Positions 9,195 to 63,346 of a DNA stretch of 64,000 nt are shown piece by piece. The DNA comes from Atrina japonica. Lineage: Eukaryota > Mollusca > Bivalvia > Pterioida > Pinnidae. Where the stretch lies: positions 1,167,501 through 1,231,500 of the forward strand of contig BROG01000025.1 of assembly GCA_030159075.1 (NCBI GenBank). The letters run 5' to 3'. Under the pieces are notes generated by a model. The model had not been told where the DNA came from and searched no databases. It saw only the letters and a list, made by a program, of their open reading frames with translations. The position numbers and the translations under genes are program-made. Every line of letters begins with the position of its first letter. Position 1 is the first letter of the stretch.

Positions 9195-12100
9195 ATGAAG
9201 GTGCTGTTAATAACTGCCTTGTGGATAGCCTCCTGTAGTGGTATGTAGTTTAAACTAACTATCATTCATAATGATATAACAGTATGAACTAAATGTAAAG
9301 GACCTGTGAGTTAATTTCCTGGAATTAACGTGGAATTAATTACCTGCTCAATTCGCATTTTTTTCTTTTACTTTTTTCATATATTTTTACATTTTCATAT
9401 AATTATATATAATTTTTAGCGGAATATGGAACTGCAGGGGGATTTCATGGAGGAAATATAATTTTCGGAAATGCAAACCATAACTCGAATAAGTATCCAG
9501 TGCCAGTGAAGGAAGTCAGGAAAATTCCACTGAAACGTCCTGAGTACCACAAAACTCCATTGCATCCAAAGCCACCGATCCTACCAAAATACTACCCAAA
9601 GCCGTCAAGTTACCATAAACCCCAACCCCACCCATTACCACCAGTATACTCGAAACGCCCTGTTCAGGTGACAAAGGTTGTCCACAAACTACCGTTGAAG
9701 CCCACGGGTTATCGCAAACCCCTGATTCCTGCTAAGCCGCCGACGTATCCAAAGCGTCCATCACAACCTATGACACCACGATATCCCAAGAAAGTAATAA
9801 AACGTCCAATGTACAAGGAACCACCAACATATCCCAAAAAGCCTGCATACAAAAAAGGTTAGTGATTTTTGTATATAATGTTATGGAAAAATAATGCGTA
9901 ACAGTTTTTTTTTAGATTTAAAGGATAAATGAAAGCCTATTTTAATTAATATTATAAAACACAATCCCATATACATGTCTATATATGTATGTGTTCAATA
10001 AACTTATCAGGAATGGCCGTTTCAAGAAAACCGGCATCTGGTGGTCATGGATATTTCCCAAGCAAAGATTCAAAATACAGACCAAAAATTGTTCCAAATT
10101 ACAAACGTGTGGCTAACGTAGCTCCTTTAACGGCGTTTGGTGGATGCCCACATGGGTGGTTACCTTATGGTGGACACTGTTACTACTTCAGCAGAGACAA
10201 AATGAGGTGGTTTGAGGCTTCGGTAAGCATGTGAAATTTGTATTATAATTATATATTATATATAATTGTATATTATATATATATACAATATACAATGTAC
10301 AATATACGAATGACAGTAGAATAATTTTAAAGTTAAATGTTTTTTGTTTTTGTTTTCACTTTGTCCTCATTAAAATTCATGCTGACGGCTTTGAAATAAG
10401 TTTGTGGTTAGAATTATAGATAACTTGTAAAAACTTAGATAACGTGTAAAATCTTGAACGCTCAAGATGTCATTTTCTTGGTTACTCTCACTAGAGATGA
10501 CTGAAAACCACGAAGGATTAGTCTTTAGAAGTATCCATGGTACATGGGTATATTTGTCTGTTCCAAAAGACTACTGAATCCTTTTGATTTCCAGAGATTC
10601 ATGTTTGTCCAATATTCATCACATTTGAACATCCTGAAAATTTATCCTTTGGTGTCTGAGATTTTTTATATTGATAAAAGTGAAAATGTCTTGCCTTAAT
10701 TTTAATAAGCAGACAATCTTGTAGCAAATCAGAAAAGTTTACTTAGATACCTTAATATATACAACATTTCAGATGAAGTGCAGGTATATGGGTGGTTATT
10801 TGGCCGTTGTTGATTCCGCCCACGAAAATAGTTACCTGAAATTAATGGCAGGAAAATACAGATGTAAGTAACACATTATCTTGAAATTAAAATGTTTCAA
10901 TTTTTTCATTCAAACTATTGCTTTTTGTGATAAACTTGGTGACGTTGAATTTAACTATTTTACAGTGAAACCAGGAGTTTGGTTTGGTTTAAATGATATC
11001 TTATTTCCCCAAACGCATAAGTGGTTTTGGGGAAATGGACAGCAACAATGCAAATGGTTTGATTGGTATGGTAAGGGCCCAACCTTTTCGAAAGGAGGAT
11101 ATCGACACTGTGTTGCAATGTGGTGTGACAATAAATGGCAATGGCATGTCCAAAATTGTCATAGCAAGCAGTACTACGTCTGTGAATTAAATCCGGTAAG
11201 CTTAAAATAATGGCATCTATACTAAGTATTTAAAAAATCAACTTGTATGAAGTGTAGTGTAGTTTGTTCACTATTGGTATCACATCGATACCGACCAATT
11301 CATCGTAAAATTAATTACAGTGGAATGATCTAAAAAAAAATAACCTCACTGGAAAGACCACCTGGCGTATTAAGACCGAAAATATTCCGTCACTTGAAAC
11401 TTTCTCAACAACATTACTAAGTCCATATTACCATCTAAGAGACCAGCTCACTAATCAGTTCGGCTAATAGCGAGTTTCTACTTTAGTGGATACCTCTTTG
11501 GACACGAGACCCCCGTACTCTGCATTCCAATTTTCACCCACACCATTTTTGTGTGTAATGGTAACGGATTTGGATTCCCTTACCGGGTTTTACTTTGGTA
11601 TCCGTTCTTTCATATTAACACTGTTGTTTTTTGGCTTCAATGTTTATGCTTTGTAGACTGACACGATTGACTCGGCTATTTAACTTTGATATTTAAAAAT
11701 CCCTAATATTATATTCTATACATAACCGCCCATTTGTGCGTAACATTTAATGTAAGTGTATATTGTAAAATGTGCATACGATATCAAAGGAAAAATCAAT
11801 GCAGATTACCTACCGTACAGCATTTTATATCAAGCTGGCGTCGTAATACATCATTAACAGATTTAACATATCCCTAAAATGATATTCATACGCTTGGATT
11901 TAATCTTCACTTGTAGTACACGACTGATTTAGTTTTTCTTCATTTTTCTTGTCACACCCTGTAGACGTTGTGGCATCTTTCATCATTACCAGAAAGGCAA
12001 CTACAAAAGTTGTCGACAGATATAACTATCTAATTTGCCATACAAAATACTATGTATGGTAAGGGCCATTTTAGCCCCACATCAAATACATTTAATTTCA

Positions 12101-12413
12101 CACTATATTGGAAGTACATGTCCTTGTTTAACAAAAAAAGATAGATAATCATTAATGTCCTTACCATACATAATCCTTTAAATCTATCACACACACACAC
12201 ACACACACACACACACACACACACACACACACACACACACACACACACACACACACATATATATATATATATATATATAATCATATACATGATATAAATA
12301 ATAGTATGTCATATAATCTCTAGGTTTTTTGTTTTGTTTATGTTTTTTTTTGCAATCGTTATATCTTTTTCTTTATCTACTTTCAGGGCAAGCCATGCAA
12401 ATGTGGTTATTAG
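9195..12413 (+). CDS. Gene A: secreted Pro/Lys/His/Tyr-rich C-type-lectin-like protein (byssal fp-1-like), 6 exons
   Basis: Coding exons: 9195-9240, 9420-9857, 10011-10222, 10773-10863, 10966-11195, 12387-12413; all introns GT-AG, phases 1,1,0,1,0; 347 aa. Residues 1-16 (MKVLLITALWIASCSG) form a signal peptide, with a mature start near AEYGTAGG. Exon 2 encodes about 145 residues of irregular Pro/Lys/His/Tyr-rich sequence (YPKRP, HPKPP, YPKKP types) rather than the clean repeats of its paralogues. The lectin-like domain follows (GGCPHGWLPYGGHCYYFSRD, then WFGLND and FPQTHKWFWG), ending in tail GKPCKCGY. It is the most divergent paralogue: KGP replaces KEP in the long loop and Q-Q-Q precedes CKWFDW. 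By analogy with pen-shell apfp-1 (recalled, not searched) it would be a foot-secreted adhesive or structural protein. Exon prediction is strong; function is inferred. Confidence 0.88.
10500..10680 (+). repeat. Penelope-like 3'-region fragment in intron 3 of gene A
   Basis: Decayed match to the 3' flank of the RT elements: ttttgatttccagagattca, tgtttgtccaatattcatca, then an atcctgaaaatttatccttt and tggtgtctgaga ending. Confidence 0.5.
12187..12281. repeat. (CA)n(TA)n microsatellite in intron 5 of gene A
   Basis: About 70 bp of CA units followed by about 24 bp of TA. Open frames across it are artefacts. Confidence 0.95.
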
Positions 12414-62800: not shown

Positions 62801-63346
62801 TGTCATTATGTTATATATTTCAAATTATTATTACTTGCTTGGCCTCTATTTACTTGAAATATTACCAAAGTCATTTCTAATATTAAGGTGATGGTACTGT
62901 AAAAGTTGGAGGTCATGGTTATTTCCCAACCAGTTATGATGAAGGATATGGATACTACAAAAAAGGATATTACAAGAAAGTGATTGATGCAGATCCGTTG
63001 TCAGCTACAGGTGGATGTCCTCATGGATGGCTGCCATACGATGGAATGTGCTACCTCTTTAGCAGAGATAAGCTTGGTTGGTTTGAAGCTTCGGTATGTC
63101 TCAAACTATTAACACGATAAATTGTTTAAAAATTAAAAATACATTGATGTCTACAATGGTAGGACCAAAGTAGTGAACATAATTAATTTAAGAAAATAAA
63201 TTATTCACTAGAAAAAGATCCTTATCAAAATTTAATAAAATATAATTTATTGCAGATGAAATGCATGTACATGGGCGGTTATTTGGCAGTAGCAAACTCG
63301 GCACATGAAAACAGCTACCTCAAGTTGATGGCGGGAAAATACGAAT
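59831..63346 (+). CDS. Gene E: secreted YKPPVYKKP-repeat C-type-lectin-like protein (byssal fp-1-like), exons 1-4, 3' end beyond window
   Basis: Coding exons seen: 59831-59882, 61368-62174, 62888-63093, 63256-63346; phases 1,1,0, with the exon 4 donor again phase 1. Signal peptide MMLLQLSLAVVLISVIQG. Exon 2 has 268 codons, the largest in the array, built from an 11-residue unit: first (P/K)-x-VVYKPPVYKK forms with V/E/I variants, then from about 61845 KKPVYKPPVYK with an extra Lys, ending GYKPGG. Exon 3 encodes VGGHGYFPTSYDEGYGYYKK and CPHGWLPYDGMCYLFSRDK. Exon 4 encodes MKCMYMGGYLAVANSAHENS. Exons 5 and 6 are not present before 64000. If they match the paralogues, the protein would be about 470 aa. 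Two Tyr per 11 residues makes it the richest candidate DOPA protein here. Function is inferred. Confidence 0.93.
59912..60474. mobile_element. MITE-T in intron 1 of gene E, split by a SINE
   Basis: The left end is ctGGGCATTAGCTGTG. The interior is 59930-60160, and the right end resumes after 60441 with aaatacagctaatgcccct, followed by TTAA (60475-60478). Confidence 0.8.
60161..60441 (-). mobile_element. tRNA-derived SINE, family 1, copy e, nested in MITE-T
   Basis: Antisense complete copy: tail tgtttgtttgtttggtttgt at the left, body gttctttaacgtgccgacac, and head ctaccgactgagcttggccgg at the right. gatttt on both sides may be the target duplication. Confidence 0.88.
61124..61151. repeat. (GA)n microsatellite in intron 1 of gene E
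   Basis: Fourteen GA units. Confidence 0.9.
62405..62620 (-). mobile_element. SINE family 2 copy in intron 2 of gene E
   Basis: Near-complete antisense copy: tttacgccacactcaacaat, gtggaggagagaacccggtt, agccgggaagggaacacccg, tccagcagagctcgaacctg (B box) and gatgctctaaccatatggtc (A box). Confidence 0.85.

Follow-up and report, generated by a model that had tools for sequence, protein, structure and literature searches.

Is apfp-1, the protein that glues the byssal threads of pen shells to living tissue, the product of a solitary gene, or does it belong to a set of linked genes? We examined this in a 64,000-nucleotide stretch of the Atrina japonica genome (assembly GCA_030159075.1, contig BROG01000025.1, positions 1,167,501 to 1,231,500 of the forward strand), referred to here as the window and numbered from its first letter. 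Five genes lie on the same (+) strand between 9195, the ATG of gene 1, and 63346, where exon 4 of gene 5 ends. An earlier sequence-only reading had proposed that the five share one exon plan and match the architecture of apfp-1, described as a single protein. By its predicted product, gene 3 is apfp-1, and we consider it likely that the array as a whole is a tandem apfp-1 gene family whose secreted products would work through a cohesive arm joined to a folded head.

The identity of gene 3 was established against published protein data. In the accessible text of the apfp-1 paper (PMC4912638), the protein has the N-terminus ASXVPPVD behind an 18-residue signal peptide, the peptides ODYKOVPK, YELKPGVW, and GLNDVLFPK, and, as a mature protein, an isoelectric point (pI) of 9.47 and a mass of 38,485.8 Da. 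The gene 3 product reads ASYVPPVD after 18 residues, contains all three published peptides, and has a pI of 9.47 and a mass of 38,457.8 Da. ASXVPPVD and PDYKPVPK (published as ODYKOVPK) fit gene 3 alone among the five genes, YELKPGVW is present in genes 3 and 4, and GLNDVLFPK is present in genes 2, 3, and 4. In place of YELKPGVW, gene 2 reads YDLKPGVW and gene 1 YRLKPGVW. The leucine codon of YELKPGVW is split across exons 4 and 5 of gene 3, so this peptide supports the exon 4-5 junction, and the gene 3 exon joins as a whole are supported because the published N-terminus, peptides, and protein parameters were matched.

A second set of values comes from the database record AIW04139.1, tabulated in the available part of PMC7018726 with 352 aa, 40,382.27 Da, pI 9.47, aliphatic index 57.76, extinction coefficient 121185, a grand average of hydropathicity (GRAVY) of -0.662, 15.3% Lys, and a charge cluster at 121-146 (KKPPVYKPKKPVYKPKKRPAYKPKKK). 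Gene 3 encodes 352 aa with pI 9.47, aliphatic index 57.76, extinction coefficient 121185, and the identical 26 residues at 121-146; no other of the five genes has the listed length, pI, aliphatic index, and extinction coefficient. The mass is off by 28.01 Da, Lys content is 15.6% versus 15.3%, and GRAVY is -0.661 versus -0.662, all of which fit a single Lys-to-Arg difference. Compared with apfp-1 (Yoo et al. 2016, PMC4912638), gene 3 therefore has the same N-terminus, peptides, length, pI, aliphatic index, extinction coefficient, and charge-cluster place, and differs by about one Lys-to-Arg change as judged by composition. The proposed match to apfp-1 architecture holds more strongly than it was put, since gene 3 is, by these peptides and parameters, apfp-1 itself. 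The remark that apfp-1 had been described as a single protein also stands, as a term search of the available text of PMC4912638 found neither "isoform" nor "variant"; that text likewise yielded no gene cluster, exon plan, paralogues, or motif loss.

We then considered how the five genes are laid out. The gene models derive from the sequence itself; the signal peptides of genes 1, 2, 4, and 5 were judged by eye, and gene 3 is the one gene whose exon joins published protein data support. The common build is a signal peptide, a Lys/Pro/Tyr-rich exon with phase 1-1 boundaries, a linker, and a C-type-lectin-like domain (CTLD), all within one product in full for genes 1-4 and in part for gene 5. Gene 1 (9195-12413; exons of 46/438/212/91/230/27 nt) comprises a signal peptide (9195-9240), a Pro/Lys-rich exon 2 (9420-9857), a linker that is not Gly/Tyr rich with the CTLD start (10011-10222), two CTLD exons (10773-10863 and 10966-11195), and a last exon ending GKPCKCGY stop (12387-12413). 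Gene 2 (20998-25396; 52/396/215/91/230/27 nt) has its signal peptide at 20998-21049, an exon 2 with PDYKP and KPVYKP repeats (22120-22515), a Gly/Tyr linker with the CTLD start (22841-23055), CTLD exons at 23767-23857 and 24378-24607, and a KKPCKCNY stop exon (25370-25396). Gene 3 (36992-40550; 52/444/215/91/230/27 nt) follows with a signal peptide (36992-37043), the repeat-bearing exon 2 that contains the published N-terminus and PDYKPVPK (37340-37783), a Gly/Tyr linker with the CTLD start (38180-38394), CTLD exon 4, where YELKPGVW starts (39459-39549), CTLD exon 5 with GLNDVLFPK (39933-40162), and a KRPCKCGY stop exon (40524-40550). Gene 4 (47552-52856; 52/195/206/91/230/27 nt) is composed of a signal peptide (47552-47603), the shortest Tyr/Pro/Lys domain (49112-49306), a Gly/Tyr linker with the CTLD start (50107-50312), CTLD exons at 50652-50742 and 51346-51575, and a KKVCKCGY stop exon (52830-52856). 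Gene 5 (59831-63346; 52/807/206/91 nt) is known through exon 4, that is, the first half of its CTLD, with a signal peptide (59831-59882), a long exon 2 (61368-62174), a Gly/Tyr linker with the CTLD start (62888-63093), and CTLD exon 4 (63256-63346); its exons 5 and 6 lie beyond the window.

Exon 4 is 91 nt in all five genes, and exon 5 (230 nt) and exon 6 (27 nt, ending C-K-C-x-Y) are constant in the four genes complete within the window. Intron phases are 1,1,0,1,0 in all four complete genes, exons 1-4 are open with phases 1,1,0,1 in 5/5, all 23 modelled introns are GT..AG, and none of the five products has an internal stop. With pieces of gene 1 as tblastn queries, exon 3 was recovered in 5/5 genes (worst E 6.1e-18), exon 4 in 5/5 (worst E 1.7e-13), and exon 5 in four (worst E 1.5e-32). 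These E-values, together with Pfam Lectin_C matches above cut-off in 4/5 products, exclude chance likeness among the five genes. The claim of five same-strand genes on one exon plan was thus confirmed in its phases and exon sizes; its six exons were seen in full in four genes, and gene 5 contributes exons 1-4. No further strong CTLD or linker copy was found in the window by tblastn on both strands, the leftovers being weak at E 0.06 or worse, and extra copies of exon 1 were sought on the + strand of the window.

Exon 2 is where the genes diverge most visibly in size. It codes for 146, 132, 148, 65, and 269 aa with 13, 17, 21, 11, and 49 Tyr in genes 1-5, respectively, and, being symmetric in phase, could be skipped with the frame left intact in 5/5 genes. 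Tandem Repeats Finder reported tandem arrays for the exon 2 sequences of genes 2, 3, and 5; in gene 5 a 33-nt (11 aa) unit recurs ~23 times. The program found no array in exon 2 of genes 1 and 4, and that of gene 1 is without YKP. The linker contains 22-28% Gly and 18-21% Tyr in genes 2-5, compared with 14% Gly and 9% Tyr in gene 1. A Tyr-rich repeat domain followed by a Gly/Tyr linker had been claimed for all five genes; this applies to genes 2, 3, and 5 for the arrays and to genes 2-5 for the linker. Similarly, of the "five different cohesive domains" once proposed, sequence and length do differ, but the gene 1 version is weak and non-repetitive.

The head was compared with known C-type lectins. 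Products of genes 1-4 match Pfam Lectin_C (PF00059) at 38.7-49.4 bits, above the cut-off of 22.6; the gene 5 product, cut by the window end, gave no Lectin_C match. In C-type lectins, EPN or QPD is the sugar motif and WND the Ca2+-coordinating motif, according to the text available from PMC12842671. The EPN position reads EPK in genes 2-4 and GPT in gene 1, and the WND position reads WKV in genes 2-4 and WHV in gene 1, each pair lying within exon 5, so that neither motif is kept in any of the four readable CTLDs (0/4 each; the count covers genes 1-4, as the motif region of gene 5 falls outside the window). The top Protein Data Bank matches of the head are mannose-receptor-family chains. When the head is aligned with solved structures, WKV stands at the WND place in LY75 (DEC-205) and PLA2R too, in the second matched CTLD of each. 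These second matched domains are not known to bind sugar. Relative to a standard PF00059 domain, the heads also carry two extra long-loop cysteines, which may pair, and the C-K-C tail. Head plus tail is basic in genes 1-4 (pI 9.1-9.2, charge +8 to +9 at pH 8) and has 10 Cys, two of them within the C-K-C-x-Y end on its own exon (4/4).

As predicted proteins, then, the heads of genes 1-4 do not carry the canonical Ca2+-dependent mannose-binding motif set (EPN plus WND). Mannose binding through the textbook Ca2+ site 2 is improbable for this head, and the published mannose-binding reading of apfp-1 needs care. The suggestion of a "lectin anchor" is right in that the domain is a CTLD and is weakened by the missing Ca2+/sugar motifs in 4/4 readable copies.

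Next, we compared the promoters. A dyad-like element with the pattern TGYTCNNTNRAGCRAATA has four mismatch-free matches in the window, one upstream of each of genes 2-5, in each case starting 26-27 nt upstream of a TATA box. These lie at 20904-20921 with TATATA at 20930 for gene 2 (promoter 20904-20935), 36896-36913 with TATA at 36923 for gene 3 (36896-36934), 47457-47474 with TATAAA at 47484 for gene 4 (47457-47489), and 59732-59749 with TATATA at 59759 for gene 5 (59732-59764). The gene 1 copy (9095-9112; promoter 9095-9148) is degenerate, with two mismatches, and stands 48 nt upstream of TATAAA at 9143. Allowing up to two mismatches gave nine matches, two of them overlapping on opposite strands, versus 1.41 expected, and 0/100 shuffles reached nine. 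The dyad-plus-TATA promoters of genes 2-5 suggest shared regulation. The gene 1 promoter also has an orphan copy at 7908-8023 (84% over 117 bp, with likeness ending before exon 1), which may be left over from a lost sixth gene or stem from a partial duplication.

CTLDs are 84-98% identical among genes 2-5, with 130/141 residues shared by genes 3 and 4, 124/141 by genes 2 and 3, and 119/141 by genes 2 and 4; the partial gene 5 shares 49-55/56 with genes 2-4, highest with gene 4 (55/56). Gene 1 shares 96-107/141 with genes 2-4 (105/141 with gene 3). For the CTLD, the six pairwise comparisons among genes 2-5 give ratios of nonsynonymous to synonymous substitution rates (dN/dS) of 0.012-0.161, based on 58 codons wherever gene 5 is involved. 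The CTLDs of genes 2-5 have been constrained as exon 2 took on new lengths and repeat types. Likeness also reaches beyond the exons: ~430 bp spanning the promoter and exon 1 are 83% alike between genes 2 and 3, and 551 bp comprising intron 4 and exon 5 sequence are 77% alike between genes 3 and 4.

Collectively, the five products are most likely secreted byssal linkers with a common head and arms of differing length, judging from their predicted architecture. They may, as the earlier reading suggested, serve different parts of the byssus. The published portion available for apfp-1 reports foot origin, a place in the thread cuticle, 5.2 mol% 3,4-dihydroxyphenylalanine (DOPA), and an Fe3+-DOPA Raman signal (PMC4912638). 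Under the tandem-family reading, the window comes from Atrina pectinata or a very close relative, one ancestral gene would have been duplicated in tandem to give five genes, and each product would be secreted by foot glands, if the paralogues follow the route of apfp-1. Part of the exon-2 tyrosines would become DOPA and be cross-linked through Fe3+, a chemistry published for apfp-1 alone, and the basic, folded CTLD would keep the protein in place where the thread faces tissue or mucus. Further links, disulfide or cysteinyl-DOPA, may come from the C-K-C-x-Y tail. Labor would be split between exon 2 as the cohesive arm and exons 3-5 as the head, including in the paralogues, which would differ mainly in arm length and Tyr number (65-269 aa, 11-49 Tyr) around a nearly constant head. 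A more ambitious version, which we put forward tentatively and consider rather unlikely as a whole, is a modular glue toolkit in which the exon-2 cassette sets arm length and DOPA sites, the conserved head anchors non-canonically (basic, free of Ca2+ site 2, bound to glycans or polyanions), the tail cross-links, and alternative splicing and copy number tune a stiff-to-soft junction along the thread.

Several observations count against the tandem-family reading or loosen parts of it. The instability index leaves the differing Lys unsettled: the available part of PMC7018726 gives 33.74 in its table and 33.47 in its text, and the nearest values from single Lys changes are 33.73 (residue 345) and 33.49, so that more than one compensating change between gene 3 and AIW04139.1 is possible. 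The accessible apfp-1 text gives 360 aa and six PVYK, against 352 aa and three exact PVYK in gene 3, though the listed length of the database record (352 aa) agrees with gene 3. The dyad pattern was drawn from the same promoters against which it was then matched, and its counts are hence partly circular. Synonymous divergence (dS) of gene 1 is saturated in three of four pairs, where dN/dS is not computable, and is 3.2 in the fourth; constraint on gene 1 is therefore visible only as protein identity. The expression, proteomic, and localization evidence covers gene 3, one gene of the five. Finally, layers of apfp-1 show adhesion with mannan that increases with Ca2+, as reported in the available part of PMC4912638, which argues that the head binds sugar somehow. 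The apfp-1 paper proposes a working Ca2+-dependent mannose lectin, which the head could be despite its changed motifs, and the bivalve lectin CgCLec-3 is given as a Ca2+-dependent mannose binder that lacks the coordinating motif (PMC12842671, as far as its available text goes). We give this a real chance, if somewhat less than an even one: all four heads have EPK with WKV or GPT with WHV, the LY75 and PLA2R domains that share WKV are among the best solved relatives by sequence, and the force measurements were made on whole apfp-1, to which basic charge or DOPA could contribute.

Two further explanations concern the array rather than the head. Gene 3 might be the sole byssal protein, with its flanking paralogues silent or employed in mantle, periostracum, or mucus. 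Consistent with this, the published N-terminus and PDYKPVPK both occur in gene 3 alone, gene 1 is divergent in its lack of a repeat array and Gly/Tyr linker and in its promoter spacing, and oyster C-type lectins related to apfp-1 have been read, in the text available, as perlucin-like and perhaps linking adhesive and periostracum. We consider it improbable, as all five genes have open frames and intact splice sites, CTLD dN/dS is low among genes 2-5, and genes 2, 4, and 5 carry the dyad-TATA promoter of gene 3. Pseudogenes within the array were rejected on the same absence of internal stops and the GT..AG borders of all 23 modelled introns. The common order and exon plan could also be expected of an assembly artifact or of haplotype copies of one gene. 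Such duplication was rejected and is extremely improbable: CTLD dS is 0.39-0.79 among genes 2-5, most intron sequence cannot be aligned between genes at E 1e-6, and exon 2 lengths differ (438, 396, 444, 195, and 807 nt).

The tandem-family reading can be set beside other systems. The accessible apfp-1 text calls apfp-1 homologous to mfp-1 (Mytilus fp-1), citing similar consensus repeats, cuticle location, and DOPA-Fe3+ (PMC4912638); the likeness rests on that statement, and the repeats may have arisen by convergence. The six oyster C-type lectins show 44-48% homology to apfp-1, stemming from the CTLD, and five of six have neighboring gene numbers; they differ in being named perlucin-like, and in the text available a Tyr-repeat arm is not mentioned. 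The thread-tissue interface is rich in other C-type lectins (PMC12842671, in the part available), so transcripts or proteins of some paralogues may already have been described, and automatic annotation of these genes probably exists, because an A. pectinata RefSeq proteome is in use, as the available text of PMC13093298 indicates. A literature search by title and abstract start found no description of the cluster, which may still have been described before.

Around the genes, we observed repeated reverse-transcriptase-like fragments with a Y-I-D-D-like motif at 54695-55444, 4918-5100, 6043-6231 (-), 26859-27188, and 29781-30011 (-), which we take to be of retroelement type from that motif alone; Pfam at 0.01 gave no match for the four such stretches 54695-55441, 26862-27188, 29784-30011, and 4730-5050. 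A dispersed element of ~165-225 bp, 85-88% alike, occurs at 25872-26095, 38967-39189, and 63536-63717, between genes and inside introns. Directly behind gene 3, 40836-41478 holds a 34-bp tandem array of ~10 copies with 95% matches plus a more diverged extension. Scans of the window for tRNA genes and against Rfam gave no matches, and Pfam on eight other open reading frames of the window gave nothing above threshold and one sub-threshold match.

Taken as modelled here, the thread-to-tissue glue apfp-1 is a small family, apfp-1 being one of five linked genes. Wet glues have a template in apfp-1, which is also a model of how stiff material is joined to living tissue. If the gene has four linked sisters, "apfp-1" antibodies and extracts may report several proteins because the CTLDs of genes 2-5 are so nearly identical. 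The natural variants would offer ready-made arms of differing length on one head, and the absence of EPN and WND makes the "sugary interface" mechanism directly testable.

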